Shown here: positions 2,065 to 63,502 of the stretch, in pieces
Position numbering within the stretch: the stretch's first letter is position 1
Layout of the letters: every line of letters starts with the position of its first letter
Source of the DNA: Thuidium tamariscinum
Lineage: Eukaryota; Streptophyta; Bryopsida; Hypnales; Thuidiaceae
Length of the DNA stretch: 64,000 bases
Assembly (NCBI GenBank): GCA_947034885.2
Contig: OX344749.2
Coordinates: 48,141,682 to 48,205,681, forward strand
Reading direction: 5' to 3'
Notes under the pieces: generated by a model
Told to the model about the DNA's origin: nothing
The model's input: the letters and a program-made list of their open reading frames with translations, nothing else
Databases searched by the model: none
Translations under genes and position numbers: made by a program

Positions 2065-3960
2065 TATGAAGCCATTTAAATTACAGTCACAAACATCCTA
2101 TAAGCAACCTAAGACCACCATTCCATGTACCTATTGGCTCTTGAGTATCCACCAATTAAGGACTAGCATGTTATATACATTGGAGTTATTGCTTAAAGTC
2201 TTGAGGCCTTTTTTTCCATCAAAATCCACTCAAAATTGCCATTTCTATTGCAAGGAGAAAATACTTTAAAGTTGTATTTTTTTTACAAATCTCACTATAA
2301 GATCTTATACTAGACTATTGTAAAAATATGTGGAAGAAATCTCCAAAAATTTGACCACATAGATTGTAAGATCTTTACATATGAAGTGAAAGAAACTCGT
2401 TTTTTTTCACTTTACTCAACTAGATTTGTTTGCTTCAAATCTACTCAACTTATAAATTTGCACTATAGATTTTGATTTTCTATTTCTTTTATTGAATATT
2501 GAACTGAAAATCCAATGGCAAAAATTTCAAGAAAAAAACCCTTAATTTACATTCATTAAAATATTATTGAAGAGAACTAGATCTAAAATTGAATGAAAAA
2601 TCAAATTGTTAATAGTTCTAAGGTAGAATTGAAGCACCATCATTGTAATGGTGAGATTGTTTTAACAAAAAAGCTATATCCTATCTAACAATATTTTGTG
2701 AAATTTAAAAAAAAATTGCATTCAGATATGAATTTTGTAAGTCATGTTTTCAAAAAGATGCTGACATTGTCTCTAAAACAAGATTGTTCATAAATTTTGT
2801 ATTACTAGTCCACATAAAATGGGACAAAGTTTCAAATGTAGGCAAAAATATAATCATTGAGAAAAATATATTAAAAAATCAAAAAAATCAATATTTTGTT
2901 ATATTTTTTGGATGTCCCTCAAGTTGTTTTTGGACTAAGGATGGCATAACTTTCATTCACAAGCACCAATTGAAATACAAATTATATCCATAGTAAGCTA
3001 TTAGATTTTCTATCTTCAATAAAAGTTTAAAAAATTTAGGTCAAAAATTGAGATCACATATGCCTACCCCAAACCCCAATAATTCCTTAATCCTTATAGT
3101 GACTTTTAGACTTTGGAGGTTAATGTACTCAAAGTGTGAGGAAAATAATTAAATAGATTTGGGTGAGTCCTACAGTGGGGATGGGGCCACAAGTTAGATG
3201 GCCAGAATAGGAAAATGGCAAAGATACCTTGTCTAAATGAGTTAGCAATCCTCTCTATGGAGGATTCAAGTCAAAAGCAAAAAAATTATGAGCACTCTTA
3301 TTAATCAAAAGCTTAGAATTGCTAAGAAAAGTGTTCTATTGGTTTTGTCTATTGTAAGCACAAAGCCTCAATGTCTTGTCTTCTAGTTTGTATTTTGAAT
3401 TGTAAGACAACAATCCAAGTACAATGCATGTCATAGTGTATTAGAGCAAAGATTTTTCTAGATGGTGATTTTAAAATAAATTTGGATATTTTGGAAAACA
3501 TTTGCCTATTTTGAGTGAATACAAACTCTAGGAAAGTCTATGCAATGGTTTTTGAAACTAGGATGGTTTTACAACATTTAGACAAATGTACACAACTTTG
3601 GATGACAACATTTTTCACCTATCATCTATAAATTTCCTAATGAACTTAACTTCAAGTGTCCAATTGAGATCTCTAGGAAATAGATTGGGTCAGTAGAATA
3701 GAGATACTTTGATGTTTTTCAAATGAGGATGACTTTACAACACTCAAATGAATGTACATAATTTTGAATAAAAATATTTTTCACCTCTCATCTATGAATT
3801 TATGTATGAGTATAACTTCAAATGTCCAAATGACATTGCAAATTATAATTATTTCCTCAGAAAGTTGCAAATAAATTCTCTAGCTTAAAGCTATTATAGT
3901 GTAAAATGTATATAGAATTACCTTTCATAAGTTTTGCATCTATGAATCTTAGGATTATTA
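2065..3960 (+). repeat. Dispersed repeat R, copy 1 (split by a TTAA element)
   Basis: Positions 2065-2192 and 3124-3960 together match copy 2 at 5640-6390, and the first part also matches copy 3 at 53085-53568. Shared landmarks are the 'cataaacatcct' start, the 'ccattccat..acctatt' phrase, 'gattttaaaataaattt' and a terminal stretch with 'caacactcaaatgaatgtacataa'. The last stretch occurs twice within copy 1 (about 3545-3690 and 3717-3960), so this copy carries an internal tandem duplication. The block is interrupted at 2197-3119 by a TTAA-flanked element. No coding capacity is recognised; it could be the remains of a retroelement or of a larger non-autonomous DNA element. Confidence 0.6.
2197..3119 (+). 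mobile_element. TTAA-flanked element, D subtype, decayed copy
   Basis: This 923-bp segment is flanked by TTAA at 2193-2196 and 3120-3123. Its interior resembles the better preserved element at 53573-54481, including the early 'gaggcctttttt' stretch, a 'gtggaagaaat' stretch and an 'ataacttt.attcacaagcacc' stretch. Its ends have drifted (left AGTCTTGAGGCC, right GACTTTGGAGG). It sits inside dispersed repeat R, whose uninterrupted copy runs straight across the matching point near 5757. No transposase is encoded. Confidence 0.55.
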
Positions 3961-10740: not shown

Positions 10741-12420
10741 AGAAGCTAAAATTAGGATATGCTGAACATTGTCCCTCAGTCTCACTCTTGCTGCATCTGG
10801 AAAAGCAGCTCTGAAGAGCCACGATGGAGTTTTGTAATGGCATTTGCAAGGGATTCAGGTCTTTTCATCAGAATATGCTATACACTGCGCCGTGAGTGAA
10901 ATGAAAAAGCGCTTGGGGACAATTTCAACTACCTTTCACATCATTTTTTGTAATGGAAATTATGAGTACTCTTGTGAGATCTACCCACCCACCCACCCAG
11001 CTTCAATGTGAACAGAGAACGATTTGGAATCGAGATGGGTGGTCGCGAGAGAGGATGACATAACTTAGTTGGTACAAATTAAACAGCCACGCACAACTGA
11101 TTTGGCATGAGTTTCGATCGACATAATTACAGCTTGCAAGGAAGTGCTGGTCGGTGTGATCCCAACGGAACCCAATGGAGTTGAGTAGTGCTGATTAATT
11201 TTGTAATTCTGAGTATGGATGGAGTAGCATCGCAAGGACCGGATAAGCTTGTTCAAGTGGTAGGAGCGGCACGAGAAGGTCAGTGGACATAATGTCTAGA
11301 CGCAAGTTGTCCTCCTCGGAATGATTCGTGTACTTTTGGCAGCATTAAGTGGCTCGTGTTGAAACACAAATGTCATGGAACACAATGCTATTGAAATAAA
11401 GCTGAAAGGAAAGGATTAGACTGACGGACGGATACCTCATGATTGATCAGAGAGACAACGATCCAAGCAGTTCGGATCGACGAGCGTTTCCATTTCCTTC
11501 AATTCGCTGGGCGATCTCATTGCTCATGGATCGAATCAAAGGTTCTGCGATCGAGTTTTGATATTTCGACAGTATTTCATGACTCTGGATTGTGGGACAG
11601 AGTATCTCAAGTATGTAACCCACAATAGAGCATGCAATAACTGAAGACTAAAGGTCGACCCAATGAAGTAGAAGCAGTGTCCCCACACACACACACACTA
11701 GATTTGCTTTTCTTTGCTGACACAATCTCTTTCTTGTTTCAAGTGAGATGTTGTGCACCTGAGGATTCGATATAATTACAACAGTGATTATAACATAGGT
11801 TACGTAAGTCATTAATTTGATCTCAGAATATCAATTATGAGGCTCATTGAGCAGGACGGCCTAAACCGCCTCAGGCAATGAAAGTCGGTGCCTATCGAAA
11901 TCATGAGTTGCTTGCTCTTCACTGAATTTGTCAAGTGCTTCACAGGAAGAGTCGGGTCCCTCAATGAACTTGTCTCTCTCACTGATCCATAGTTTGTTTC
12001 CAGTGTGCGCATTATTGACACTGCATTTGTCCCCAAATTCTAACTGGGATCGAGCATTACTAGCAGACAATTAAGCCACCCTCTCTATTTTGATATGAAA
12101 AAAAATTGGAAATAAACAGGCTGGGGAAAAATAATGAGACAAATTTGAGGCTGAAGAGTTGCGGACACGATAGGGAAACTCCCTCCTGGCTTCCACGAAA
12201 AATCAACCTCAATAGAACCAATCACCCAGACTCCTTCAATCATATCGTTCTGGAGTTTGTTGCTTAGATCGTGTCAGTCAGTCATAATTTAACCCCGAAG
12301 TCCACTTTCTGGACGATGTACAGAATGAACCTGACCAGATTTCTTTCTTTCTCATTACAGCTTGGATGAAAGTCATCCTCATATCAAGAGTCTTATCCAA
12401 GTGGTGTTACTAGAGCACAT
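10741..12420. other. Unique gene-like DNA upstream of the GDSL gene, unassigned
   Basis: This stretch is less AT-rich than the repeat land beyond 12420 and I found no copy of it elsewhere in the window. Open frames reach about 74 codons, for example on the minus strand at 12070-11861 and 12036-11812; neither resembles a known family and no splice chain joins them convincingly. It may be extended promoter, a 5' UTR exon or a non-coding transcript. Minor simple repeats are (ACCC)n near 10983 and (CA)n near 11684. Confidence 0.45.
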
Positions 12421-12889
12421 CTTTTTCTAAATTTACAAATGTGGAAGTATTCCAAGTGGTTGACTTGCATTGACTCTAGTTCAAACTTGGAATTGCAAAA
12501 ATGAGGTCATAGAATTGAACAACACAAAAATTCCAAAAAATCACCATGTCAAGAGAACCTCATTTCAAGTCTTGTCCAACAAAATTTACTCAAAAAATGA
12601 CAACATTTTGCTTGTAATTGAATTTAGAAGGAATTTAAAATTTTTCCTTTAAAAAATTATAGAAAAATGTTGGTTATAGCATTAGTGAATCTAACCTTAT
12701 GGATAGAATCTAAAACTCAAACTCTACAACTTTTATTTGCACCTCAATTCCAAAAAAAATCTTTCAAATAATACATTATAATGATTTTTTTGAAATCGTC
12801 AATTCTGTAGATGAATCTAGACGCTTAGGGGTTAATCCACAAACTTCACAGTTCTCAAAAATAATTTGAAAGCTAAAACCAAAGGGCTG

Positions 12890-16080: not shown

Positions 16081-16236
16081 TATTAATAACTGAGACCAAT
16101 AGAGTGGTATTTAAGGTAGGTACACCCCAAATGGCACCTGACCTTAAAGCGCCATGTACAATGTGCATACATTTTCAAAATCAGTCATGTACCCAGATTG
16201 TAGATGGCGCTTTCAGAAACACACTTTGACTGTTAA

Positions 16237-16853
16237 CCCCTAAAGGACCAAACTGCATTTTTTAGTTTGCGGGCAGTTATAGATTCTCTACTCTAAAATA
16301 AACTTTGAAAGCCTTTATTTTCCTCAATTTTTTATATTTTTGAAAAAAAATAAAAAATTTGGATGTTGATTGTTTGTCACAACATGACAACCATTGGGAT
16401 TGACATTTTAAAATTCTATAAATAAAATTTTAACAATTTAGTATTTTGAATCACCCTCTATTTCTTTCTACTTATTAATTTTTTCCTATGTGTTGTACAA
16501 TTCCAAATGATGTGAATTTTTTTGAACGTATAGCCAACTTGCCGTGAAGAATGAATCCAAAGAAGCACCACCATTTTGGACATTTTATCATAGAAATGTG
16601 ACCTTGTGAAGTGCAGCTGCCCGCTTTTATGCAGGGACAAAAAGAAGGTTTTTGTCAATTCAAATGCTAATATCTTGCAATTTATATGGTGGAAAATTCT
16701 GAAACTTTTTCCACATCTTTTCACACAAGTGAACTATAAGATCCTATGGTTACATGTGTCTAAAAATGTTTTTTTTCAAAAATTTGGTGCTTGAAGTAGA
16801 CATGGCAGTTTTGGTGTGTTTTTGGTGAAGACATAGTCTCTGACCTTTAGGGG
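16237..16853 (+). mobile_element. TTAA-flanked MITE A (CCCCTAAAGG ends)
   Basis: A 617-bp element flanked by TTAA at 16233-16236 and 16854-16857. Its ends are perfect 10-bp inverted repeats, CCCCTAAAGG and CCTTTAGGGG. The interior matches elements at 62221-63153 (same strand) and 35583-36501 (opposite strand), notably 'tccaaatgatgtgaa' and 'gtgaccttgtgaagtgca'. Compared with those it lacks about 300 bases after the left end, so it is an internal deletion derivative. No transposase is encoded. The TTAA duplication with CCC/GGG ends is typical of the piggyBac superfamily; assignment is by inference. Confidence 0.75.
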
Positions 16854-16894
16854 TTAATAACTTTTGCATACGGTATCCAAATCCACTGTTCTTT

Positions 16895-22522: not shown

Positions 22523-22552
22523 AAGATAGGGTACTTATAGTCAATCACTAAA

Positions 22553-23258
22553 CCCTTAAAGGACAGACCTATCACCACTAGTTTGAAGCTTCTTTGCCCG
22601 TCACTCAATTTGTTACTATTTTTGAAGCAAATATGTCTAAATTTTTTTTTCAGAGATGAAAGTACATTTCTTCTATATTCCACAAAAAATTTAGATTTTT
22701 TTGAGGAAAATTGATTTTTAGGAAATTTTTTGAAGAAAAAGTGAAGAAAAAATCATATCAAATAAAAAATTATCTCAAAAAATCTGAAAATTTCATCATG
22801 TGTGTACATTATAGTGACAAACATCATGGTGGAAACTCAATTCCCGTGTACTTTTATAAATGGACATTAAAACTGCAGCCAAAGTTCAAAATGCAATAAA
22901 ATATTCAAATTTTTTCTTAAATCTAAAATTTCAATTCAAGTAAAAACTAGAGTGGAGGACCTTCATTTCATTAGTTGGGTTCAAACTCAAAAAAAGTCAT
23001 TTTTAAGGAGAAATTTCAGATTTAGTGAATTTCTCAAAATACACTAAAATGGCAAATTTTGCCATCCGTTTTCTCTAATTACTTCTCAACTACATGAAAA
23101 CAAATAGTAATTAGACTAGAAACTCAATTGGAGACTCTTTACAACTTAACGCAAAAAGTCATTAAAAAAAAAGTGAATGAAAAAACTACTATTTAGGTCT
23201 TCTTCTGCTTCTGCGAAGTCATCTGATCACCAAAAATGGTGCCGACATCACTTAGGGG
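22553..23258 (+). mobile_element. TTAA-family MITE F
   Basis: The left end is CCCTTAAAGGAC preceded by TAAA (decayed TTAA); the right end is ACTTAGGGG followed by a perfect TTAA at 23259-23262. The interior is the reverse complement of the element at 41753-43097 over nearly its full length, for example 'cacctatcaccactagtttgaagc' region and 'tctcaactacatgaaaacaa'. 706 bp, no transposase. Confidence 0.65.
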
Positions 23259-23262
23259 TTAA

Positions 23263-24336
23263 GCAATTTTCAAGTAGATTGTGAGTAGTATGAGGCAAGT
23301 GAAATTTTTGTCAAGTAGAAAGAGAGGAAATATGGGAATGCAAATTTTCAAAATTTTATTCCCAAAATTTAACCCTAGAGTGTCTGGAATCATATCTAGA
23401 ATTGATGATTTGGAAAGAATGATTATAAAGTCCTATTTGAAAGAATATTTTGGGATTGAGATATATCAAAAGTTGTAAATTTTGAGTTTTGGATTCCATC
23501 CGTATGGTTAGATTCCCCAATGCTTTCACCAATATTTTTCTATAAATTCTGAAAGGAAAATTTCAAAATTCCTTCTAAATTCAATTACAAGGAAAATATT
23601 GTCATTTTTCAAATAAAATTTATTGGAGTGGATTTGAAATGAGCTTTTCTTCATATGGTGATTTTTTGAAATATTTTGTTCTTTAATTCTATGACTTCAT
23701 TTTTGCAAATCTAGTTTTGAACTATAATCAATATAAGTCAACCCCTTGACATATTCTTCATTTATAATTTTAGAAAATTATGTACTCCAATAATATCAAA
23801 TCCAACCTTTGGATAGAACAAAAACTTCATAAAGAATTTCTAAAAATTAGGATGACTTCCATCCAAGCAATAACAAGACAGGAAACTAATTTCCAAAAAT
23901 TTCAAATCTGTTCATCGTCTAGAAACTAGACATCAACGCACTCTAGGTTAAATTATTGTGACTTTTGGAAACCAAATAGGTAGTTGTTTGGACTAATAGC
24001 CAATGTCTAGACTCTTCCAATTTCAATCATAGACTAAATATTTTTCTGCTCACTACTTCCTATTTTCTTGCTCACTACATTGGTACATGTGTCATTATCT
24101 TATTGTCCCCAATCTTGAAATGGAAGAAAAAGCACATTCCAAGCTTTGGTTGAAAATATGTTCTTGCCTTGGTTGAAAATAGTTGCACTCTATAGATTGG
24201 ATATGGATCCCTAGTCGGAAATGGGTACTTCTACCTTAATGGTCATTAGGCTTGTATTTTACCTTAGTTTGCAATGGAATTTCTATTTTAGTTGTTTCAA
24301 AAATAATAATAACGTTTTCTATTGGAGTTTGGTTAA
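23263..24336. other. AT-rich intergenic DNA, no gene seen
   Basis: No recognisable gene or RNA. The phrase 'gcaatggaatttct.ttt' near 24275 also occurs near 21812, with a following 'tgtttcaa..aataataat' stretch, so a short decayed repeat is shared. Confidence 0.45.
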
Positions 24337-25278
24337 CCCTTCATTGCCTAAGGTCCAAACGTGTCTAAAAACATCCCTGCTTTTCAAAGCCTTTTAAGTT
24401 TAAATATCACTAAGCTATAAAAATCTCAATCATAGTGTGCATGTTGTAGATGACATGGACCAAATTTGGAGTCATTTGGTTGTATAGATTGCAAGATCAC
24501 AATGTTTTTGTGTTGAAGAAAGATATTGAAATTCTCTTAAAAACCCATTTGGAGTGAAATTTGATTTCTAAACCTATTCAAATGAAAAAACTTTAAACTT
24601 AAAAGTGCTACAAAACCAACACACAAACACATGGCAAAAAATGTCATTTAATTGATTCATTGTGTTTGCAAAATGACTTGGAAGTGTCATAAATAAGAAA
24701 AAATACATCTATGACTTCACCTCCTCCCACTAAAATGCTTCTCAATCACTCATACCTTCTTGGATTGATATGAAATTCTAGCTACACAAACTAGAATAGA
24801 ATGCACAACTTTTTCAAAAAAAACGATGAGAAACAAGCATTGTATGAGGAAGAAACAAGTTGCTAAAGTTCACTGTAATCTAAAAATGTCTAGTTCTTGA
24901 ACTTCAAATTGCTTCCAAACATTCAAAACAACTTGGATTGCCATGAAAATTTGACCACAATAACTAGACTTCTAGATGGGAACAAAACTTAACACATTTG
25001 ATTGAAAACCAACATTAGATGAAGGAGCAACAAGCCTCTAAAGTTGCAGTTATCCACTACTGTGTGGTGAATTCAGATTGAACTTATGAACTTTGATTGA
25101 CTTCCAAAAAAAACTTACATCTTCGATTGATATGAAAATTTTACCACACATTGTCAAACTAGACTAGTATGCTCAACTTTCCCAACGAGTCTTATTGAAT
25201 TCAAACATTGGATGGAAAAGTAACAACACTTTGAATTGAATTGTGAGGACACTTTTCATCCCCTTACACAATGAAGGG
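24337..25278 (+). mobile_element. TTAA-family element H (CCCTTCATTG ends)
   Basis: 942 bp with perfect 10-bp inverted ends, CCCTTCATTG and CAATGAAGGG. The left flank is TTAA (24333-24336) and the right flank is TTCA, one base off. The interior matches about 37380-39140, which is interrupted by a nested element, and a fragment at about 26765-27000. Internal direct repeats include 'ttggattgatatgaaa' and similar phrases at about 24762, 24930 and 25115, so the middle is built from degenerate units of about 170-190 bases. Non-coding. Confidence 0.65.
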
Positions 25279-26399
25279 TTCATACTTTGAGTTGTCTTCA
25301 TTTTGGAGTGCAATAACTTGACCCCTTTAGCATGTTGTCTTCAAAAATGGCCTATTGTACCCGTATGAATCCTTCAATTTTGGTCCTTAAATATGAGATT
25401 TCTTTCTTGCACAATTTATAGAGCAAGAGTGCATTCCTAGGCAATCTTGCAGAAAAAATTGTACTTGGAAAACAACTTTTACTATCTTACTTGCAAATGG
25501 CCTTTGTACTCAGAAGTTGCAACGGTAGTATCAGTGCACTGTAGGAAAGGGGATAATTATGCTCAAAGCCACATCTAAGGTTATACATTGGAGCCTAGTT
25601 AATTCCGAAAAGTTGATTTGAACCTAGAGGTTACTTGATGGATCATGCCCATTTGGAGGTTGAGGTGAACTAACCCCTTTGCTTGGCCCCTCGGGAAAAT
25701 GATGAAATTTTACACATAATAAAGTTTGCAAATTTTGAATTCATATTTGCAATTAGAGGCCGCAAATTAGTCATCAAGAGTGTATAAGGTAAATTTATCA
25801 AACACTAAATAGGAGGCTTTTTTTACTTGCACCTTTAAAATGACTTGCCGAAGGGGATAGAATAAAACACAAATGTGTTATAAAATATAAGTTTTGCAGC
25901 TTTTTTGAAGTTAACATCAAAAAAGATAATGTAAAGGACAAAAAGTAGAAAGTATCTATATGGTCAAAATTATAAAATTATTTTTAGATTCTCTTCAAAT
26001 GAATTTTGTAAATATGACTTCAAAGATTCATTAAAAATACAATTTCTATCTTTAGCATTTGAATTTGCTTTATTGATCAAAATTTTGGTTGCTATTGATT
26101 TGTAAAAAAAATGCAAAAAGACTAGTAATGAAAGCATCAACACTTTCTCCAAATAGTAAGTTTTTCAACACTAGGCAATTCTAAATATTTTGTGCTATTT
26201 CTCTTATAATTTTTGTTTGACTATGCCAATCTCAGGTTTGAGTACAAATGTTGAAAGACAACCAAATTTTTTCAAAATTCAAAAAACAAAAATTTGAAAA
26301 TTGTTTTTTTTCTGCCTGAAATTTTTTACTAAAGTTGGACAGTGACCAAAAAAGGGCGCTTGAGCGCTTATTAATAGGGGTTAAGAAAAGCTTTAGGCC
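25279..26399. other. AT-rich intergenic DNA, no gene seen
   Basis: Only short AT-biased frames. A lone 'aggggttaa' near 26376 resembles the right end of the TTAA family, but I could not find a matching left end. Confidence 0.45.
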
Positions 26400-26764: not shown

Positions 26765-27010
26765 TAACCTATAAAGGCCCAAGGCCTTTTCAGGCTTAAA
26801 AACATTATTGCTTTTGAAGTGTTATAGGTCTAATGTCATGAAAGTATAGAAATCTCAACCAAACAATCTTGTAGTGTACAAGTTGTAGATGGCATGAATC
26901 AAATTTGGAGTCATTTGACCACATAGATTGTAAGATTATAATGTTTTAGTGTTGAAAAGAAATGTTGGAATTTTCCATCCAAAATACTTGAATAGACATT
27001 AAAAAAGTTC
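26765..27010 (+). repeat. Fragment of TTAA-family element H
   Basis: Begins TTAACCTATAAAGGCCC and then follows element H through 'ttggagtcattt' and 'agattgtaagatta'. The similarity is lost after about 27000, so only the left third is present. Confidence 0.5.
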
Positions 27011-29861: not shown

Positions 29862-30689
29862 TAATTTAGGGGCGACCTCAAAATTTGGAATTGACGACCA
29901 CTACTATATTAGTAAAGGTAAGGGTTTACCTTTAGATTTTTTTTTGGTGAAATTCCTTGATAACAGTCAAACTAAAATGGAATATGAAATGGGATGCAAT
30001 TAGAAGGCAATGAACTAGGGCACAAGATGGAGGGGAAAATGAGGGGTGCCAATTTGGTATAGTTTCATACATATAAATTTCAAATTTATAGATGATAGCA
30101 TGAGCAAGTTCAAGATAGAGTATCATGATCTTGCTTTTAGTGAGAAGAAAAAAAAGATTGTGCATGATGATTGCTACAATGATGATGTAATAATGTAAAT
30201 AGCATCAAATATATATATATTGAGATTCTATCATTCTATTTGGTAACAAAAGTTCATTATTTATGACTCAAAACTTGAAGAGTTTCTTAGTTGCTCAATG
30301 TCATATCCTTAGCTTCTCCACTTTGTTCAAAATATTTAGGGTGGTGTGTATTTTGTAGTACATTGTTGTTGAGACAAATTGGTATGCAAATATGCAATGG
30401 CAAGGAATAAAGAAGATGAGGGATATATGGAGGGCCAAAGTGGGCAAAATGTATCTTGCTATAGTTGAAGGTATTCATGATCAACAATTGTCTTATATAT
30501 AGGCATGAAGCACCAATTTGATGTGTAGGATTTAATTTCTAAAATGAAAAGATGATTTTTTTATTGCCCAATTATCTCCACTTTGATGATATGAAATTGG
30601 TTTCAATGACTTGCTAAATGTTTGCATGTTACTAATCCATTAACTTCTAAAAGACCATAGTGCATTCTTTTAGCAATATAATATAGTGA

Positions 30690-31465
30690 TTTTGGGCACC
30701 TCGCTACAAATGGATTTTTTTTTCCTTTGAAATTTTCATACAATATATAAATGAATTTTTTCTTTAAGGCCCAAAATTTTTCATAACTTTTGAATGTATA
30801 GTTAAAACTTAGAAGTTAATGTATAAAATTTTGGGTTGCTTTTTTCTAGACTAAGCAATCTAAGAAGATTAAAAAACAAACTTTTTCTATAAACAAAACT
30901 TTAAAATTGGTTTTCAAGATTTATATGTATGTGAAAACCTTTGGATAATTCCATTTTGATTGATGAGATGTAAGTTATGAAGAGCTTCAAATTTGGGGGA
31001 ATTATAAATTTTCTACTTGAGAATCAATTTTGAAGTCCTTTATTTAACTCAATTTCTTTTAAATTGGAAAAAATAAAATTATAGAATGTAGATAGTTTGT
31101 TACAAGATTACAATCACTATGATTGCCATTTTTAATTCCATAACTAAATTCTCAACAATTTTTTGAATCAATTTCAACTTCTTTCTATTTATTATTTTTT
31201 CTTATATGTTGTACGATTCCAAATGATGTGAAAATTTCAAGCTTGTAGCCAACTTGACTTGAAGAATGGATCCAAAAAGAAGCCAACAACAAGAACATTT
31301 TTTCATGCAAAGGTGACCTTGTGAAGTGCAGTTGCTTTATTTAGTTCAAATGCTTATATCTTGAAATCCACATTAATAGTATAAATTTTTGTAATTTTTT
31401 CCGTACCTTTTCAAACCAAAGTACTATAAGATCCTAAGGTTACATGTGTCCAAAACTTGAAGAGT
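30690..31465 (+). mobile_element. TTAA-family element, decayed A/C-type copy
   Basis: Positions 31130-31455 align with elements A and C ('gttgtac(g/a)attccaaatgatgtg', 'gtgaccttgtgaagtgcag', 'aagatcctaaggttacatgtgtc'). The terminal CCCCTAAAGG is no longer recognisable at either end, so the edges are approximate. Confidence 0.5.
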
Positions 31466-32022
31466 TCACTTAGTGTATCTATAATAGGTCATATGCAATC
31501 AAATTTTAAACCCCCTGTTTTATGTCCTAAAATTCAAATAAAAGGAAATAAAAAAATATCAGTAGATTTTCCTACTTTGAAAGTTAATGTTTTGAATTAT
31601 TTATATTTTTATCTATCAAATATAATTAGTTATAAATTTTTTAAGTAAAAAATATACATTAGAGTTTAAAATAACTTTCACACCCATATATTATATGAGA
31701 AAAATTATCTAAAAAATGAATTAAATTTTTTTTTTAATAACTCTCTATTCAAAGTTCATTTTTCTTGATTATTGATGCAATGGTCATCTAAATGTGTTCT
31801 CAATCAATATTTGAGTTAAAAATTGTGCCATTTCATTTCATTTTTCAACCTATTCTAGAAATCATTTTGTATATTATTTGAGTAGGGAATTTTTGACAAT
31901 GGAAATCTATAGTCATTATTGGACAAAGTTCAAAATTATAGGTTGAAATTTAAATTTATTAAAAAGCATAAGGGGGACAAAAAATCAATTGTTTGCACGT
32001 GATCTATTATAAATACACTAAG
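31466..32022. other. AT-rich intergenic DNA, no gene seen
   Basis: No recognisable feature; strongly A/T-biased with short frames only. Confidence 0.45.
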
Positions 32023-32107
32023 CACTACAAGAGAAAGGGGTATTTTAAGTGAATTTTTAAGTATAGTCCTAATCATAAGATTTTAAACACCCCTTTCTCT
32101 TGTAGTG
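32023..32107. mobile_element. Minimal CACTA MITE, 85 bp, TSD AAG
   Basis: Perfect 19-bp inverted ends, CACTACAAGAGAAAGGGGT and ACCCCTTTCTCTTGTAGTG, enclose fewer than 50 bases. Direct AAG copies flank it at 32020-32022 and 32108-32110. This is close to the smallest form a CACTA element can take and it would fold into a tight hairpin. The sequence at 34796-34826 carries the same right end (CACCCCTTTCTCTTATAGTG) on a decayed relative. Confidence 0.88.
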
Positions 32108-34660
32108 AAGTGAACTCCCCAAGGTCCAAAAATGTGTTTTTTTTCCTCTAAAACTTAGTACTTCTATATAAATGATAGTTTTGGAGATTTTTTTGTGCAA
32201 ATATAGTCCATGAATTCTAGGGATTAAGACATGTGAGGAATAAAGTGATGTTGGGATCTAAAAAAATGGAGCAAATTAGGTGGTAATTCAATGCAATTAG
32301 AGACAATTGTAGTAATTCATGGAAGGTTGGTAAATTTTCTACAGTTGACAAAATGATGATTTGCTTTAAAGGCATTTATTTCCCCACACAACAATATATG
32401 CCCCCCAATGCCACAAAACTCATAGCTAAGCATGATTGGCATATAACATAGTACTGCAATTGATTACACCAAGTAGAGATAAAAATAAGGTGATTGGTTT
32501 AGACAATTTTTTCTAGCATTGCCTCATTCAAAGATCTATTGGATAGAAAAATTTATGTAATTGCCACAATGAAAGTGGCCCGGAAAGTGGGTGGATTTCC
32601 CTCAATCTTTTAGTCACACAAAAGCATTCAATAGAAATCTGCAAAGTAGACTAGATTGGTTCTTGTATGATTAGAGGCAAATGAATAGCATTGTATGGAA
32701 GGACACGAAAGTTACTTCTTCTCATCGTTTCAACACATGTAATTTCAATTCAATTTCCATAGTAGTTCCATGTTGCTTACAATAGGAAAGCATTCCAACA
32801 TTGCTTTTCTATGGTAAACAATTTTTACAATAGGAAAACATCACTAATGCACCTTGTGTATACAACACATATAAAAAGTGTGGATGTGATGAACCAATTA
32901 CAAGCAATGTAGACATGTTAGACCCAATCTTGCAAGTGATTGCACTTGATTTTCTATTTTTTTTTAATACAAGTATATAATTCACAATAAGTGCAAGACA
33001 TTAGATCCCCCATTGTGTCCAATCACACATTTGCAATTTTGGATTGAATTGTGCAAAATAGTAAGAAGGAAACAAGTCCAAAAGAGATGACTTGAAATTC
33101 AAGAAGTTCATTTTATAGGCATATGTATTATTTGACATTCATCGACATCCAAAATCCTTGAATGGTTTGCAACAATAGCTCATCTTGCATGGCAAAGCTG
33201 AAGATATATTGCTCAATTTGTAGTAATAAATTTAAGTCTCAACAAAAAGGTTGCTCTCAAATTTACCACAAACATCTACAATAAGTAACCATTTGCATTG
33301 CAAGAAACTTTTAGTAGGTATAAGAAAACTCAAATTTAGATATTAGGCAATTGCTTTAGAAGCAAGGTAAAAATAATAAACCAAGGCCTTGACAAATCAA
33401 AACTACCAAATTTTATTCTAGTAACCATCATTTGCCAAAACCTCTATAATTTTTGACTTTTTGACTTTGTTTTTGAAGTGTTTGTCCAATGTCTAAATTT
33501 AGATTTTCTTCTTCCTATTTAAAATTCTTTTAAAAATTCTTCCAATGATTTAAATTTAAAGTCCTAATTATAGTATAGGTCATTCAAAAATTAGAATTAC
33601 ATTTGGAGGGCCAACATCTCTGTTGAATGCTCTGAAGTGAATGCACAAGCATTCCAATTCCTATAGAAATTGGGATTCTTGATTCTTAAAATTCTCATCA
33701 TAGAATACCATTTGGATTCTTATTTTGACAAAGTATACAATGGGAAAAAATTTCAAATAGAGTAGTTTGTCATGAATTTGAAGTACATCTTGACAATGTA
33801 GGATTTTATTGGAAGTGTTCTTTTTCTTTGTTATCTTTGAAAATTGGTAGAACAATGTACAAATGGGTCTTCAATATAATTGAATTTTAAAGTCAAAATC
33901 CATAGTCCAAATAGAAACCAAAGTCTTTTTTAATTCTTAAGTAGGGTCCAAATAATACTTTTTGGAATTTCAACAACTCATATTCTCCAATCTATAAGGT
34001 CAAACTTCATACAAATTTTTTGTTCACCTAATCTTATATAAGGTCAATAAAAAATCTTATATTAAGTTGGATTTGCAAGTAAATATTTCATGTCTATATA
34101 GCTCAATGCACTAGAGATTACAATTTTGAGTTGTTATTGAGCCAATGCAAAAAAAGGCCTTGCTATTGTAGAAGTTAAGCACAATTTGATGACGCCTCTA
34201 TGGGTTTTTTCCCCTCATAGCAACCTTTGGAAAGGCCAAGTACTCCTTTTAAGGATGAGATCCATTGTTAAGTGGTCAAACATTTACTCAAACATCATGT
34301 CTAAACTAAATGTAGCCCATGAAGTTGTGTTCAAATATCAATCCTATATATTCAATTGAATTGCATATCATTGTAATAATTTTTAATTTTTTTCTAATAA
34401 TTCTTTTTGATGGATAAAAAAGTTATTGTAATTTCTTACAATCAAAGGTGGAAATAATATTATATCAATTATAATATAATTTAGAATGATTTGGAATTTT
34501 TTTTACAAATAAAGGTTAGAATTTTGAATCAATTAAAAATCTTGATATAAAATTAAAATTCATTTAAAAGAAAAAACTTTGAATTCTTTCAAAAATTTCA
34601 AGATGAAGTACAAAGATATCTTGCCAAACTTTACTTTCTTAGTTAAATTTAAATACCTAA
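32108..34660. other. AT-rich intergenic DNA, no gene seen
   Basis: Frames are short and unlike known proteins. No inverted-repeat ends or tRNA-like folds were found by eye. Confidence 0.45.
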
Positions 34661-34826: not shown

Positions 34827-35582
34827 TATAGCTCATAGTATCTTTACATATCATCCATTCCACATTATGCACTACACATTCTACATCATGTAGATAATAC
34901 TAACCTTAAATTCCATCACCTTTTGGGGGATTTAAACTTCAAGCTCCCTAGCATCAATCTCTTAATATTTTAGTATTGCGTCACTTGAGGTTTTAGCAAT
35001 ATTGTGACAGAAATGTGATTTAGTAATTTTCAACGAGTAGAGGTTTAGGTCTACTATAGAGAAGGGCTTTGAATTGACTTTGATATAAAGAAAGAGGTCC
35101 TTAAGTATCACAAGAGGTGTGCTCATTTGCTGAAGAATTTCATCAAACTACTTTAGATTCATTCTTCTATTATGCTTAGATGTATGCTAACATTCATATC
35201 TTATGAATTTTAATCCTTTCATTAATATAAATGTTATTGTTGTCAATTCTAAAGTCACATAAGTGCTATTCATGTAAGTGTTACAAATTGTATGTGCTAC
35301 CTAAGATAAGTGTTAAAGTACCGACACCACTTAAGTACAACAAGTTTTCTTGCTTTAAAGTACAAGTAGAACTTCTTGTAGTGCAACCTTTCTTAGTACA
35401 AACTTGTAGTAATGGAGTTCGTAGGTGTAGGCAAATTTGAAGAACATTCTTTAAGAAATAGTGTTGAAAGTTGGCATCTATAAATGGCCATTCATTGCAC
35501 CTCTCTTGGTGCATAGTCCCAACACCTTGCACTAAAAGAAGTTTTACCTATATTAATAGATGTTGATGGTGGATTGTAATAA
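34827..35582. other. AT-rich intergenic DNA, no gene seen
   Basis: The minus-strand frame at 35532-35281 and the plus-strand frame at 35231-35440 overlap each other and match nothing. Several 'aagtgttaaagt/aagtacaa' phrases repeat loosely near 35280-35400. Confidence 0.4.
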
Positions 35583-36501
35583 CCCCTGAAGGTTTTTGAC
35601 TATGTTTTCACCAAAACTGCTCCAATACTGTCATTTCTAAGACAACTACCAAATATTAGAAAAAAATATTTTTGGAATAATATAACCATAGGATATTTTA
35701 GTGCACTAGTTTGAGAAGATTTAGAAAAAATTTCAGAAAGCTTAGTAGTGTAGATTGCAAGATATTAGTGTTTGAAGTTACAAAAATCCCTTTCTTATGA
35801 CTGCAAAAATCTGGGTAGCTGCACTTCAAAAGGCCACATCTATATGAAGAAAAATTCAAAATGGTTGTTACTCTTTGGATTCATTCTCTAATTCAAGTAG
35901 GCTACATGCTTGAAAATTTTCAAATCATTTCGAATTGTACAACATGTAAAAAAAAATAGTAAGTAGAGAGAAGTAGAGAATGATTCAAAACACTAAATTG
36001 TTAACAATTTATTTATTGAATTGAAAAATGTCAATCACAATGGTTCAAATGTTGTAATAAACAATTTACACCCAATTAATTTTTTTTCAAAAATATTGAA
36101 AATTGAGTAAAATAAAGGACTTCAAAGTTTATTTTGGAGTAGAGAATCCATAACTACCCGCAAACTAAAATTCTTCATAACTTTTGACTCATTAATCCAA
36201 ATGGAATGATTCAAAGCTTTCCGCTTATGTATAAATCTATAAGACAAATTTCAAATTTTGTTTTTTACAAAAAGGGATTTTTCCTAATCTGCCTGAACTG
36301 TCCGAGTTGAGAAACAAACAACATATTATGTGATAACTTTTCAACCATGTAGTCAAAAGTCACGAAAATTATTGGGCTTGAAAGATACTCCTTGTCCACA
36401 CCTTCTATTAAAGTATGGTTTCAAAAGATGAAAATCTCTAGTCACATGTACCTACCCAAAATTGCTATGTTGCTAAAAAAAGCACTTTGGTCCTTTAGAG
36501 A
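35583..36501 (-). mobile_element. TTAA-family element B (A/C type, inverted)
   Basis: 919 bp in opposite orientation to A and C. The left end CCCCTGAAGG is preceded by ATAA, and the right end CCTTTAGAGA is followed by TTGA, both one or two changes from TTAA and the consensus. It keeps the left-hand part that element A lacks, including 'catgtacctacccaaaattgc'. Non-coding. Confidence 0.65.
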
Positions 36502-36879
36502 TTGAAAGTTACATCAAGGTTCACCACTTACTATAGGGGCATTCACTTTTGAGATGTTGGACATATCAGAGTTAATTTTATCATCTAAAGTCTAAATCTA
36601 GATAATACAGTTTCTATTTTATCTTACTTTTAGATGCCCTTCTTATGATAATAATTTCAAGGCAACGCATTTGAGTTCACGTCGATGCTTCTGGATGAAT
36701 GTGGTATGATATCCGGACTAGGTTCACAGCCTCACTATTTATGATATCCGCACTATTTTGCAAATAGTGTCTCAGCAAATTGGCTGACACTGTTCACAAA
36801 GTGCTTGATGTTACCACATATCCTTTATTTAGAAATTACTGACCCAAGCTTAGTTCTCTTGGGTGATTCCTGGGGGTAC

Positions 36880-40633: not shown

Positions 40634-41339
40634 AGCAAGACAAAAATTCTTGAATGATTGGAATTGGAAGACTCTAAACATTGTCTATCAGTCAATAGTG
40701 ATTTTTGGCTTCCAAAATTCACAATAATTTCAATTTTGGGAATTAAATTCTAAAAAATTTAGAATTTGTATATTTTCTAGCTTTCTACATGGGAAAATTT
40801 TCCACCCTCTCATTCTACGTTCAATCTACTCTAAAATTGCTTAAATGATCAATTACTAATGCCTCATCCCTCATCCTAGGGGATACTGACAACAATAGTT
40901 GCATCATGTCAAGCATTTGATCCAAGTGTGGGAGTGTATTGTCATTGGGAGATCTATATACTAGGAGCTCATTAGAAAGATTGCTTTGAGTACAAGAGTC
41001 AAATTTAGTGATTACAAATTTTGTACAAAGGGGGAGATCTTCTACAATAGCTTGACTTCTGATGATTACTTTTGAATTTTTGTAAACCAACCACTTCCAC
41101 AATATCAAAATGAATGATTTTCATAGTCACTACTTTGTCTTTTAGCCTCTTAAGGCCCAAGGGCTCAAAAGTGGCCTCACAAAGTCTAGAAGTCCAATTT
41201 AAAGTGTTGTAATTTTTACATTCAATAAAACTTATTGGAGAAGTTGCATAAAGAAGTACAACTTTCACCAAAAGAAACAAAAATCATGAACTGGATCATC
41301 AACAACTTAGAGCATATATGAGCGTGCCATGTGCGATTG
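40634..41339. other. Intergenic DNA with two minus-strand open frames, unassigned
   Basis: Minus-strand frames of 95 codons (41108-40821) and 91 codons (41280-41005) overlap. The phrase 'attgtagaagatct' on the minus strand recurs at 60260 and, changed, at 54822 beside other shared words, so this is better explained as repeat DNA than as a gene. Confidence 0.4.
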
Positions 41340-43909: not shown

Positions 43910-44024
43910 GGTTGGTTATCAAGAGTACATTGTAGTGTTTTTTGTTGATTAAAACAACGGATTTTTTTTACTACATTTGAAATGTAGTGAAATTCACTAG
44001 TTTCAAAATGATCTGGGTGGATTG

Positions 44025-44306
44025 GCCTTACCATGTTGTACCAAAGGTGCAATCAAAACAAAAAGCCCCCTAGTTTGGGCCATGATCACCCCTACTTTCA
44101 TCACCCCTTAGCTAATTTGCCTTATCATGTTTTACCAAAGGTGCAATCAAAACAAAAAGCCCCCTAGTTTGGACCATGATCACCCCTACTTTCATCACCC
44201 CTTAGCTAATTTGCCTTACCATGTTTTACCAAAGGTGCAATCAAAACAAAAAGCCCCCTAGTTTGGACCATGATCACCCCTACTTTCATCATCCCTTAGC
44301 TAATTT
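44025..44306 (+). repeat. 94-bp tandem triplication
   Basis: Three near-identical units start at 44025, 44119 and 44213 with 'gccttaccatgtt.taccaa' and end with 'ccccttagctaatttgc'. A single diverged unit is present at about 59822-59918 within a related element. The near identity of the three units points to a recent expansion. Confidence 0.92.
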
Positions 44307-44505
44307 GCGGTCTCTGATTGCAAATATGGCCAAATGGCCAAATGGCCAAGCGAGGGGGTCAGTTCTCCCTGTCTTTTCAGAATGTAGAGATGGTAGTGTG
44401 TTCTCTACATTGTGTCATTTGCTACTTTAGTGTTAACTTGATAGTAAAAGAGATAGTAAATTGCCTTGCTTTACTACATAGTAAAACCAAATAATCTCCT
44501 TGTGG

Positions 44506-52949: not shown

Positions 52950-53568
52950 CTTGGGGTCAATTCCAAGATGGACACATATTTTCCAGATGTGCCCGCATGT
53001 TTCACAAATGAAACCCAAGTGGAATTATAATTTTCTGATCAAAATTGTAATTTTCGTGAATTTTTGAAGTGTTCAGACCCAAATTTCAAAAGCGCCTATA
53101 ACTAGGGTCATAAACATCCTAATAACAACCCACAACCACCTTCTTATGTCCCTATAAGCATCTAGGTATTCACCAATCAGCTATTGCTACAATACCCTAA
53201 ATGACATAAATGCACTGATTTTGTCAGATTACTAGACAGAGTTGGCTTATTTCTAGACAGATTTGGATAGTAGAATGGGTGGTAATGGGGTGACGGAAAT
53301 GGGTTGCAAACAGAATTAGGTAGGTCTACCTTAGGGGAGACCTGAGGTTTCTAATTAAGGAGCCAAATTTGGGGAAGAATATCTCCATCTCCAATTTGAA
53401 GTAATACAAAGCATCATCAATGGATACCCTGAAACTCACTCTCTAAATGAGCTCATATTGACCATTGGAGTTGGGTTCAAATGCATAACATTGGTTACCA
53501 ATCTAATCTTTTCTCTCTACGAGATTGAAATAATTCCTCTCAAGGTAATTGGGAATGAATTTAGTGGT
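52950..53568 (+). repeat. Dispersed repeat R, copy 3
   Basis: From 'cataaacatcct' near 53107 the text follows copies 1 and 2 through 'cctataagcatct', 'atttggatag' and 'attaaggagcc', then runs directly into the TTAA element at 53573. It begins where the GC-rich region of gene island 2 stops. Confidence 0.55.
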
Positions 53569-53572
53569 TTAA

Positions 53573-54481
53573 CCACTGAAGGACCAAGGCCTTTTTTGTA
53601 TAAAAAATACTCAAAATTATTATTTCTTTAGCGAAGAGTAAAAAAAAATTCTTTTCTTTTCTTTTTTTCATTTTTTACCATTTTACCATAGGAACTTATA
53701 TCTATTTAGTTTGAGAATGTGTGGGAAAAAAATTCACAAATTGCAAGATATTTGCATTTAAAGTAGATAACACAAGTTTTGGGCACATTACAAGACTAGA
53801 TTATTTAACTTTGAACCTTCTTAACTTTGATTATTTGCACTATGAGTCTTGAGCTTTAAATCTTAATAGAGGGGGGTGGGGGTAGTTGAGAGTCTAGGGG
53901 GAAAAAATGAGTTTAAAGAAACTTAATTTTCATTCTTAAAAAAAATGTTCAAGAGAAGTAGGTATGAGATAGAAGGAAAATCTAAATGATCAAAATCTTT
54001 AAGATGGAATTAAAATGGAGTGATTCCAATGGTGAAATTTTTTAAGAGAGCAAACTAAAGCATATAGAACGTCTTTTTTAATTGTAGAAATTGTATTCAA
54101 AAATGAAACCTACAAGCTCTTTCTGTACAAAAATGCTTAGATTGTTGCTAAAACAAGAGTGTCTATAACTTTCACCCAACAAATTCAAATGAAATGAATC
54201 AAAGTTCTACACTTAGACAAAAAATACAATTTATGAGAATTTTTTAATTTTTAATTCAAGATTTTGAGAAAAAAAATTGTTGCTTAGTCTCCCTTCTTTT
54301 GAGCTTATTTAGGCATAACTTTTGTTCCTAGGCACCAACTAGGAAAAAAGTAATATTCCCATGAATCTATTCAATTTTTCTTTCTTATGAAAAGTTTCAA
54401 AAAATCACGACATGAACTTAAACCATAGGTACTAGCCCAAAATCTCATTAGTCCACCAAACAAACAATGGTCCTTTAGGGG
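53573..54481 (+). mobile_element. TTAA-flanked element D
   Basis: 909 bp flanked by TTAA at 53569-53572 and 54482-54485. The left end CCACTGAAGGACCA and right end TGGTCCTTTAGGGG are inverted repeats with two mismatches in 14 bases. The interior is shared with 2197-3119 and about 56640-57500 but not obviously with elements A/C, so the family has several subtypes that keep the same ends. No transposase. Confidence 0.75.
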
Positions 54482-54485
54482 TTAA

Positions 54486-56511: not shown

Positions 56512-56639
56512 AGTTATATATAAATGTTCATTATCTCTCTTTGATGGGTGACACTTCATATTTTACCTAAGTTCATCTATCACATTACATAAGAGTTGGC
56601 TTGAATACAACTAACTTTTAAAGGTCATCGCTAAGTTTC

Positions 56640-57500
56640 ACTAAAAAAAACTTTTAAAATGTCATTTCTTGTGCAAAGAAATACATTGAAAAAGCACATT
56701 ATTTTTTGCATGTTCATCAATAGGATCTTACATTAAAATTATTAATTACAAAAATGTGTGGAAAAAATTCATAAACTCTGGTTATATAGATTGTAATATA
56801 CTAGTGTTTAAAGTAAAAGAAAAGTTGTACATTTTTGTTTGTTTGTTTGATTGTTTGACTTGGTTTGTGATTCATTAACTTGAAATTTTTCAATATAGAA
56901 TTTTGAGGTTTAAATCTGCATGGCAAAAAATTGAATTTAAAATCCTAAATAAATAAATAATGTTCATTCTTAAGGAAATTATTATGTTGAAAAAGGTACA
57001 TTGATAGAAGGAAAAATTAAATCACAAATAGTTCTTAAATGGAATTGAAACATAGTCATTGATCCAAATACAAAGATTGTTGTAGCGAATAATCTACATC
57101 TTACATATGTTGTTTTAAAAAATTGTAAAAATTGAATTCAAAACTAAATCCCGTACACAATTTTTTCAAGATGATGTCTTGATCTTCCAAAGAAAAGACT
57201 CTTCATAAATTTTGCATTTCTAATTTAAGTCCAATGAATAAAGCTTCTGTAAAAAAAAATTATTTATCTAGAGGGTTTTTCCCCATGCTAAAGCAATTTT
57301 GAGCTTAGGAGGACTTCATTTTTTCTCCCAAGCACTGAATAATATATAGAAACTAGATATTCCCACAAATCTAGTACACTTTTGGTACCAGATCTAAAAA
57401 ATACGTTTCAAAAGTTTATCATGAAAACTAACAGTATAAAAAACTACCAAAATCTTCAAAAATCCATTCTATGATCGACTTTATTACCTATACAATATTT
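56640..57500 (+). mobile_element. TTAA-family D subtype, decayed copy
   Basis: The interior aligns with elements D and 2197-3119: 'aatgtgtggaaaaaattcataaa' region, 'attcttaaggaaatt', 'gatagaaggaaaaattaaat' and 'atattcccacaaatctag'. Neither terminal CCCCTAAAGG nor flanking TTAA is convincing, so the edges are approximate. Confidence 0.5.
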
Positions 57501-58832
57501 CCTTACCTTGGCAAAAAGACCAAGAAAGAATCAATAATTTTTTTGGAAAGAAGCATTGGGCTTGTTGCTTGCAAAAAAATTGTTTGATTAGTGCATGCAA
57601 TAAGTGAATAGTATTTTGACTATTTAGCCTATATGTGGTACATGGCAAGCAATGCTTATTCTAAAAGAAGATCCAATAAATTGAAACCTTCTAAAAACAT
57701 GCATGAAATTTATTTTTGTCAATGGTTCATTCAAAAGCTAGCCTCATAGGCTAGGCTTGTTGATTAATAGTTCACCTTTAGAGGTTAAGCAATCAACTAA
57801 TATAATTATTTCTTGCAATTATTAATTTTTCCTTCAAATTTGCTAATATATTCCTCGTGACTTCATGGTCTGCTAGTTCCACCTATGTGCACATACATGA
57901 ATAGCCCCCCTCCCCAAAATGGATTGGATAGTTGACCATTATTGAATTGCCAAATCAAATGAATCTTTTCATTTTTTGCCATTGAAACCAAATTTGAAAG
58001 TGTACCAATTTTTATTAAATGTATTTATTAATTGTTTTTTAAATCTATTTGGGATATTGTTGTAAATTTATTTATTTTTTATATTTATTTTTTTAAATTA
58101 ATGCATTCTAAATTGTATATTTTATCATATGTGAAATTGATTTTGGTGTTTGTAAACCCAGTGTTTGCTACAAACGCAAATATGGTAGGAGCAAATAATA
58201 TTTGAATTTTCCATGGGAAAAAGTCTAAAGAAAGTATATGAGTGAAGAAAAGCACAATAAAACATCACTAGAAGATATCCTTGAATAAGTACCATTTACA
58301 AGTTTATCGAGTTATTTTCAACATGTTATTATATTTAAATTATGGGTAGCCCTACAATTACTATTTTACTCAAAAGAACTTTAAAAGTTGAAACCTCTAT
58401 TTCTATTTTGAGCCAAATTGTTTTACTTCCTCTTGAACTAAGTCTTATTTTCTACTTTTAACTTCCAAGAGATCCAACATTTATTATTTGAACTTTAAGT
58501 GTTTTCAAGAACTTATTGATGGAACTATAGAAAATTGATGAAGTAAATCTAAGTATATTAAAAAAGAATATTTTGTCTATTTTTCCAATAATGCAATCAA
58601 CGTGGTCACTTGGTGCTTTATGACCATTGTACAAGGTTTAGAATGAAGTCATGTTGGGAAGGGAAGAAAATGAAAACTTGATGTTTGAATTCTACTCATA
58701 TCATGATTTATTTTGCCTAAACCATTCAAAACCACATTCATCCCTCCCTTGGGCAATTAGGGATTAAATTAACACATGTCATTGTCTATTCAATACCCTA
58801 ATAATTCCTAACAACATTCAAAATAACTGATG
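57501..58832. other. AT-rich intergenic DNA, no gene seen
   Basis: Strongly A/T-biased; no open frame worth reporting and no repeat partner found in the window. Confidence 0.45.
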
Positions 58833-59619: not shown

Positions 59620-60120
59620 TTCTATTTGGCCCAGTTCAATTCCCTGAAATGAACATGATTTTGTCAGTTGTGTGGCGGAGGGAATCTCCAAACTGGCAGG
59701 ACTCTGGCTCTGACCCCAATGCTCCCTAAATTGCTTCTGACTACTAAATTAAGGTTAGTTAGATACCCCACCAAAATGGGGCCAGGGAGAATTGGATCTG
59801 GGTGGATTGGCCCCCTCGCTTGGCCTTACCATGTTTTACCAGAGGTGCAATCAAAATAAAAAGCCCCCTAGTTTGGGCCGTGATCACCCCTACTTTCCTC
59901 ACCCCTTAGCTAATTTGAGGTCTTTGATCGCAAATATGAATTCAAAATTTGCAAAAAAAATTAGTGTGAAAAATAAAAAATTACAGCATTTTACCCAAGT
60001 GGCCGAGCGAGGGGGTCAGTTCTCCCTACCCGGAGAATTGGACCCCCTTATTGCCCCGTTTTTTACCTCTTGGCCATCTTGCTTGACCCCTTCCAGTCAT
60101 TCCAAGGGTGCCAAATAAAA
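59620..60120 (+). repeat. Repeat related to the 44.0-44.4 kb triplicated unit
   Basis: Contains one copy of the 94-bp unit (about 59822-59918), a preceding 'ggatctgggtggattgg' and a following 'gagggggtcagttctccct', in the same order as at 44012-44370. GGCCCCCTCGCTTGGCC at about 59806 and GGCCGAGCGAGGGGGTC at about 60001 are inverted to each other. A shorter relative of its right part is at about 61040-61150. The 108-codon frame across it is accidental. Confidence 0.6.
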
Positions 60121-62216: not shown

Positions 62217-62220
62217 TTAA

Positions 62221-63153
62221 CCCCTAAATGCCCAAACTACAATTTTGGGCAACATAGTAATTTTTGGCGGCTCAAAACAAATAGAATCTTTATTTTCATT
62301 TCTTTGAAATTTCCAAACAACATTTTTTCAAGGAGTAACTTTAAGGTCCAACAATTTTTATAACTTTTGATCACATGTTTTAAAAGCTAATATAAGATGT
62401 GTAGTTTTCATTACTCAATAAGCAATTCAAGTAGGAAAAAAATAAACCTCTTTAAAATTACTTTTTCAAGAATTAAATATATGAAATTATTTTTTTAGAT
62501 TTATATTTAAGTGGAAAGTTTTGAATCATTCTATTTTGATCTATGCATCAAAAGTCATTAGGAGTTGTAGTTTGGGGCAATTTAGAAATAGTTATAGAAT
62601 CTCTATACTACAAAAAGAAATTGAAATACTTTATTTAATTCAATTTTTTTCTTAAAAACAAACTTGAAAAGTGTATATTGTTTATTACCACATCCTAACC
62701 ATTGGGATTGGCATTTTTCAATTTCATAAATAAATTTCTTACAATTTAATGTTTTGAATCACTTTTTGCTTCTTTCTACTTACTATTTTTTTCCTATGTA
62801 TCGAACAATTCCAAATGATTTGGAAATTTTCAAGCATGCAGACAACTTTCCTTGAAGAATGAATCCAAAAGGTAACCACTTTTTTCAAACAAATGTGACC
62901 TTGTGAAGTGCAATTGCATAATTTTTTGTAGGGCCAAAAAACGACTTTTGTCAATTTAAATGCTAATATCTTGCAATCTACAAGGTGAAAATTTTTGAAT
63001 TTTTTTCTATGTCTATTCAAACCAGCATACTACAAGACCCTATAGTTATATCATTACATGTGTCAAAAAATGTTTAAGAAAATGTTTGATACTTATATTA
63101 GAAATGTCAATTTTAAATTTTTAGTGAAAACACAGTCAAAAAACATTTAGGGG
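62221..63153 (+). mobile_element. TTAA-flanked element C (A/C type, longest)
   Basis: 933 bp flanked by TTAA at 62217-62220 and 63154-63157, with inverted ends CCCCTAAATG and CATTTAGGGG. The interior aligns with A (16237-16853), B (35583-36501, opposite strand) and about 30690-31465. It is the best full-length representative in the window. No transposase; the 93-codon frame on the minus strand at 63020-62739 parallels an 88-codon frame in A but is AT-biased and unrelated to any known protein. Confidence 0.78.
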
Positions 63154-63502
63154 TTAAGTCACAACTTAAAGGAATCTTGGAGACAATATTAAGAAATTCC
63201 TTCAAGGATGTGTATGTGACTTGATAGTTGATAATAAATAAAAATTACAACAAAGAATATAGAAAATTTTAGACTTTCATGGAGAATACAAGCAAGAATT
63301 GCAATTTTAGAGTTGTAGGTTAGGTTTAAACAATTGAATCAATGACTTTTGTTAAGATTTTCTTAGCTAATTGACAAACAATTAAATATTGATGATCCAT
63401 TCTAATTGCAAAAAAAAGAAATTTCATGAATTTAGACTAATTGCTGCTTAACTCTTAATACACCGAGGCATAGTTGGGGCTAAAATTGTAAGAAATATGT
63501 AA

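Follow-up and report, generated by a model that had tools for sequence, protein, structure and literature searches.

The window, by which we mean the whole stretch of 64,000 nucleotides that was analysed, contains eleven elements that could be delimited, a count that excludes shorter related fragments and for which three of the borders were read by hand. TTAA stands on both sides of six of the eleven and on at least one side of ten. The initial annotation had described such elements as a single MITE family; the end sequences that it quoted are present in the window as given there, and the elements themselves belong to several families.

Group I is represented by four MITEs. The copy at 62221-63153 (933 bp, plus strand; 62217..63157 with the TTAA of both sides) has TIRs of sequence CCCCTAAATG that match at 10 of 10 positions, and the internally deleted copy at 16237-16853 (617 bp, plus strand; 16233..16857) has TTAA on both sides as well. 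Comparison of the window with itself adds 35583-36501 (919 bp, minus strand; 35579..36505), whose borders ATAA and TTGA are decayed TTAA, and 30644-32223 (plus strand; 30640..32227), which has TTAA on both sides and is split by a nested element. The latter is a different element, lies near 31469-32022 and has 34-bp inverted repeats at 85% identity (CTTAGTGTATC...).

The group II MITEs are 53573-54481 (plus strand; 53569..54485), with TTAA on both sides, and 2190-3119 (plus strand; 2186..3123), with TTAT as the left copy of the target-site duplication and TTAA as the right one. The second had been placed at 2197-3119 with TTAA on both sides, a description that holds for 16237-16853, 53573-54481 and 62221-63153 and fails here: alignment with the 53573 copy, together with an empty site near 5757, puts the left border at TTAT 2186-2189, which pairs with TTAA 3120-3123, and the TTAA at 2193-2196 is internal to the element starting at 2190. 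The self-comparison also yields a group II-related copy at 56615-57784 (plus strand; 56611..57788), with borders CTAA and TTAA and, in the alignment, an excess of more than 200 bp close to the right end.

Three further families were distinguished. Both members of family E come from the self-comparison, 23373-23947 (plus strand; 23369..23951; ends CCCTAGAGTG and CACTCTAGG) and 12293-12831 (minus strand; 12289..12835), each with TTAA on both sides. The family C element lies at 22553-23258 (plus strand; 22549..23262; ends CCCTTAAAGG and CACTTAGGGG), between TAAA and TTAA, and the family D element at 24337-25278 (plus strand; 24333..25282), with a perfect TIR CCCTTCATTG, between TTAA and TTCA; both thus have TTAA on one side and a one-base change on the other, in agreement with the first description. 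Self-comparison reveals relatives of family C at 42443-42963 (minus strand) and of family D at 38471-39104 and 26764-26975.

The window also contains a large inverted duplication, 16915-17675 and 20496-21430, whose arms lie about 3 kb apart, match each other at 97% over 519 bp and at 98.8% over 240 bp, and look like the long terminal inverted repeats of a young element. A foldback structure occupies 37711-38473, with inverted repeats of 107 bp at 93% and 80 bp at 95%. A 94-bp unit occurs at 44021-44328 in three tandem copies (96-97%), and a further copy of this unit, at 92-95%, lies 15 kb away at 59820-59938. Pieces of a GDSL-type lipase gene at 6770-7153 and 7423-7782 (minus strand) are matched only weakly by Pfam, slightly short of the curated cut-off, and a Pfam scan of ten open reading frames of the window found nothing beyond these two.

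As regards the host, a LEAFY exon was found in the assembly, the other five of the six LEAFY-domain matches being weaker. In its DNA-binding part the exon comes nearest to 4bhk, a LEAFY structure from Physcomitrium (6.8e-71; next 1.3e-50), and shares a D with it at the presumed site 312. This agrees with the earlier attribution of the DNA to a plant; the host is most likely a moss. The excerpt of PMC6588583 places type II LEAFY mainly in mosses, with one liverwort case.

Ends and target-site duplication

The motif TTAACCCCTAAAGG occurs in the window three times exactly, and three, seven and twelve times with one, two and three mismatches; 20 first-order Markov shuffles of the window gave on average 0.3 matches with two mismatches and 7.15 with three, and none closer. 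A scan blind to the end sequence, which accepted any 10-bp inverted repeat starting with CC at no more than one mismatch, gave 192 pairs, three of them with equal 4-bp flanks, a yield of equal flanks not above that of the shuffles (127-172 pairs, 0-5 with equal flanks, mean about 1). Because inverted repeats with equal flanks are by themselves unconvincing when set against shuffled sequence, the evidence within the window rests on the end sequence.

In the 363-Mb assembly (19 contigs), exact CCCCTAAAGG ends number 10,070, against 364 for the reversed control. Most of them, 8,526 (84.7%), stand immediately after TTAA, the motif TTAACCCCTAAAGG being counted 8,526 times against 2 for its own reversed control. 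This genome-wide border tally refers to the TTAA form TTAACCCCTAAAGG; figures for the TTAT side (cf. TTATCCCCTAAAGG) come from fetched pairs only.

The 5'-CCC start of piggyBac elements is found in CCCCTAAAGG, CCCTTCATTG and CCCTAGAGTG. As worded in the excerpt of PMC2872659, the piggyBac TIR measures 12-19 bp and carries a CC[C/T]T motif, which CCCTTCATTG and CCCTAGAGTG fit; the main family begins with CCCC and not with CC[C/T]T, its TIR being either 10 or 14 bp long, depending on the copy, and a family starting with CCCC is also listed in that excerpt. The ends bear as well on the Kolobok-type elements, another superfamily with TTAA duplications: an origin from these would give the same 4-bp TTAA duplication, but the excerpt of PMC9587614 that describes it gives their termini as 5'-RR, against the 5'-CC seen here, and the transposase joined to MITE ends (see below) is of the PF13843 type, so that we regard such an origin as vanishingly improbable.

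TTAA is its own reverse complement, and its presence on both sides is by itself compatible with a 4-bp duplication, with a shorter one and with inverted repeats that extend further. For this reason the argument first put forward for TTAA as the duplication, namely that the bases outside it differ between the two sides, is not sufficient; the claim itself is upheld by copies with TTAT on both sides and by two empty sites. When flanks were tabulated, as had been proposed, for 19 distinct exact-end pairs in fetched genomic stretches, picked from the listing mostly by end spacing and not by flanks, 15 had identical 4-bp flanks, 13 of them TTAA and two TTAT. A broader flank-scoring set gave equal flanks in 25 of 44 pairs, some of which look spurious. 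Since TTAT is not palindromic, the TTAT/TTAT copies represent a true direct duplication; that some ends adjoin TTAT and not TTAA was counted against the explanation that we favour below.

For the 2190 element, a paralogous empty site is provided by a repeat without insertion at 5568-6273 (plus strand, near 5757). It agrees with a 4-bp duplication, its border being a reading of the alignment since filled and empty repeats are about 65% identical; a third repeat at 53130-53250, tried as an empty site for the same element, gave no clear reading. For the 23373 element, the repeat without insertion at 40632-40844 (minus strand) matches both flanks, and one TGAA stands in it in place of the two TTAA copies of the filled site. 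The target duplication is 4 bp long, with TTAA specificity.

Tourist (PIF/Harbinger) and Stowaway (Tc1/mariner) elements are common kinds of plant MITE. TTAA contains both TA and TAA, and its palindrome hides the length of the duplication in the TTAA copies, so that the TAA/TTA or TA duplications of these two kinds (taken from the excerpt of PMC10004981) could have been misread within it. The two TTAT/TTAT copies and the empty sites fit a 4-bp duplication, not TAA/TTA or TA, and the partner transposase is a piggyBac, which makes a Tourist or Stowaway origin extremely improbable. Neither TA, TWA or 8-9-bp duplications nor a partner from another superfamily, all of which the initial annotation had named as contrary outcomes, were seen.

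piggyBac transposases and their link to the MITEs

A search with the PF13843 (piggyBac) profile returned 659 first-look candidates; 116 of them were scored, and every one of the 116 lies above the cut-off. Counted from the listing, 74 of these have no stop within the match and 42 have at least one, and the stops were likewise counted against the favoured explanation. Open frames of up to about 1,000 codons surround the piggyBac domain, and Cys/His-rich C-termini are visible. The profile gave 0 matches in 14 control genomes, and since LEAFY likewise gave 0, these controls say nothing about plants.

The autonomous partner that had been predicted is found among these loci, in particular at L069, whose sub-terminal sequence resembles that of the MITEs. 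The complete element at this locus (632-5766, 5,135 bp) begins with CCCCTAAATG directly after TTAA and ends with AACTTAGGGG directly before TTAA; its termini can be read further as CCCCTAAATGCCC and GGAACTTAGGGG, again inside TTAA on both sides, and its left end, after TTAA, as CCCCTAAA... Over the first 100 bp or so and the last 250-300 bp, approximately, its identity to group II MITE ends is 68-81%. The transposase frame (2183-4504) spans 774 codons and matches PF13843 at an E-value of 2.1e-79, the values for L070 and L071 being 2.4e-78 and 1e-77. The T. ni piggyBac 6x67 matches L069 at 8.9e-33, and its residues D268, D346 and D447, presumably the catalytic aspartates, align with aspartates in L069; three acidic motifs can also be read in L070 and L071.

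At L070, a transposase frame of 521 codons is followed by the right end CCTTTAGGGG and TTAA, and the sequence at the corresponding distance from the right end is 73% identical to group I MITEs over 171 bp. L071 has a frame and a right end similar to those of L070, with short MITE matches only, and neither L070 nor L071 yielded a clear left end. A PF13843 partner within the same ends is therefore represented by one complete case, L069, and by the right ends of L070 and L071. To judge from these three loci, the counterpart of the group II MITEs would be an L069-type transposase, and that of the group I MITEs an L070/L071-type transposase; the link covers groups I and II, families C, D and E (with CCCTTCATTG and CCCTAGAGTG ends) not being tied to any transposase.

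No match to the central 500 bp or so of the MITEs could be detected in L069, L070 or L071, which does not support a simple internal deletion of those copies. The transposase lineages are 38-81% identical (11 distinct among 15 rows). Between L070 and L071, dN/dS is 0.08 at a dS of 1.35; synonymous sites are saturated in the five other transposase pairs tested.

Groups, length and age of the MITEs

Full-length copies of group I were recovered at L010, L014, L016, L017, L018, L020 and L021, in addition to the window copies at 16237, 62221, 35583 and 30644, and those of group II at L009:2398, L011, L012, L013, L015, L019 and L022, in addition to 53573 and 2190. All 14 full-length elements of groups I and II measure 917-942 bp, and 11 of 18 adjacent opposite-end pairs read from the genome-wide end listing are 921-924 bp long. 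In global alignment, group II is 66-69% identical to L014 of group I. The two groups are homologous along their length, with mean z of 5.9, 7.5, 5.8, 3.8 and 6.9 in five successive segments (four copies each), against 0.4, 1.1 and -1.2 for the reversed control of the middle three; on a simple reading of these alignments, both would descend from a common ancestor of about the present length.

A coding role for the MITEs was rejected, since among the 19 elements examined the stop-free frames reach 111 codons at most. The end-to-end pairs L025 (2,323 bp) and L026 (1,668 bp) were considered as autonomous elements and discarded, as neither has a frame of more than 79 codons.

The four group I copies of the window are 67-77% identical to one another, because they belong to subfamilies. 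In a sample of 29 copies, the best relative of the 16237 copy is the full-length L010 (95% over 593 bp) and that of the 35583 copy is L014 (89%), the best relatives of 62221, 30644, 53573 and 2190 being only 70-74% identical; with best sampled relatives at 70-95%, the window copies appear to vary in age. When one group I probe was used, the best 40 of 8,751 candidates, the probe included, comprised 39 other full-length copies 97-98% identical, lying on C1-C10, and 34 of the 40 were exactly 924 bp long. As the best-scoring candidates alone were scored, the result demonstrates a young subfamily, consistent with a recent burst, without implying youth for the majority of the copies.

Recent activity

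Across nine piggyBac loci (L060-L068), 3,984 bp are shared at 99.9-100% identity, and no two of these loci have the same flank. Their sequence ends sharply at ...GGCGTTTCAGGG followed by TTAA, and two of the copies, traced to a left end where TTAA precedes CCCCTAAACGCC, show one difference in 5,096 bp. Nine near-identical copies at nine sites imply that piggyBac activity in this genome is recent. Together with the 97-98% MITE subfamily, they bear out from outside the window the earlier proposal of an active or recently active piggyBac-like transposase. The nine-copy family forms a separate transposase clade, 44-46% identical to L058, L070 and L071, and is thus evidence of recent activity in the genome, not direct evidence for the lineage that moves the MITEs.

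One could accordingly regard the elements as mere relics, unrelated to the recently copied piggyBacs: the distant best relatives of several window copies and the separate clade of the nine-copy family would both speak in this sense. Against it, L069 joins a transposase to MITE-type ends, L070 does so at the right end at least, and one MITE subfamily has copies at 97-98% identity on C1-C10. We find this view very unlikely.

Two juxtapositions were observed in passing. At L062 one and the same TTAA borders both the piggyBac copy and a MITE-type end (GGG-TTAA-CCC), and at L053 a TTAACCCCTAAAAG end begins 4 bp past the transposon's own TTAA. MITE borders may have been reused as piggyBac targets at these loci.

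Discussion

The explanation we propose, with a high degree of confidence, is that the elements of the window are non-autonomous piggyBac elements (MITEs) that have been bound, excised and inserted at TTAA, occasionally at TTAT, by a piggyBac transposase encoded by the genome, with duplication of 4 bp. Its basis lies in the 4-bp target duplication, the TTAA specificity, the ends, the thousands of copies and the complete element that joins an intact-looking transposase to MITE-type ends. The transposase, encoded elsewhere in the genome, would bind the MITE ends in trans and cut the MITE out, the excision being seamless. The excised MITE would then be inserted at TTAA, occasionally at TTAT, where the four bases would be duplicated, and this movement would continue today.

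A broader picture, for which we see the chances as evenly balanced, is that several piggyBac lineages form a long-lived community in the moss that is mobile at present, and that a MITE lineage constrained in length to about 924 bp accompanies them. This MITE lineage would have diverged by about a third, together with its transposases, and would nevertheless have retained one full-length structure, without being re-made by repeated internal deletion.

The piggyBac enzymes are known mainly from animals. A land-plant genome with many intact-looking, recently copied piggyBacs, and with thousands of MITEs that depend on them, would be a source of piggyBac systems native to plants, and the moss piggyBacs with their MITEs would be a natural test of MITE/transposase coevolution. 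In the excerpt of PMC5505980, piggyBac is a gene-delivery transposon that comes from an insect, the cabbage looper. The genome would also show piggyBac thriving in a lineage with little mention in the literature surveyed, as far as the excerpts go. Among the matches listed for piggyBac, TTAA MITEs and the end sequence, as far as their excerpts go, there was neither an account of a moss piggyBac nor a paper giving the CCCCTAAAGG end for a plant. Insects, fungi and plants are all named as sources of piggyBac isolates in the abstract of PMC10813416, so that its occurrence in a plant is no novelty in itself; in excerpted tables, a fern genome has 1,230 PiggyBac entries amounting to 122 kb (PMC6890710) and a grass has one entry (PMC8319324).

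The kind of element is thus already known, and what looks new is the host, the scale, the diversity of lineages and the conservation of length. PiggyBac figures among the angiosperm MITE superfamilies in the excerpt of the review PMC10004981; the superfamily label is the same, but no partner transposase is named in that excerpt, whereas here partner and MITE share their ends. The coral CMITEs, according to the excerpt of PMC2872659, have TTAA and CCC ends in common with the moss MITEs, and one of their families shares its TIR with an autonomous piggyBac; they are about 96-108 bp long, whereas the moss MITEs measure about 924 bp, a length kept across divergent groups. With the piggyBac superfamily at large (PF13843; T. 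ni 6x67, piggyBat 9c0f), the system described here has in common the TTAA duplication, the 5'-CCC ends, the DDE_Tnp_1_7 domain and the three acidic residues. Animal piggyBacs with duplications other than TTAA are on record in the excerpt of PMC10813416. The present system differs from the known superfamily in its host, a moss-like land plant, in the open frames of up to about 1,000 codons that surround the domain, in the coexistence of several transposase lineages and in the use of TTAT duplications as well.
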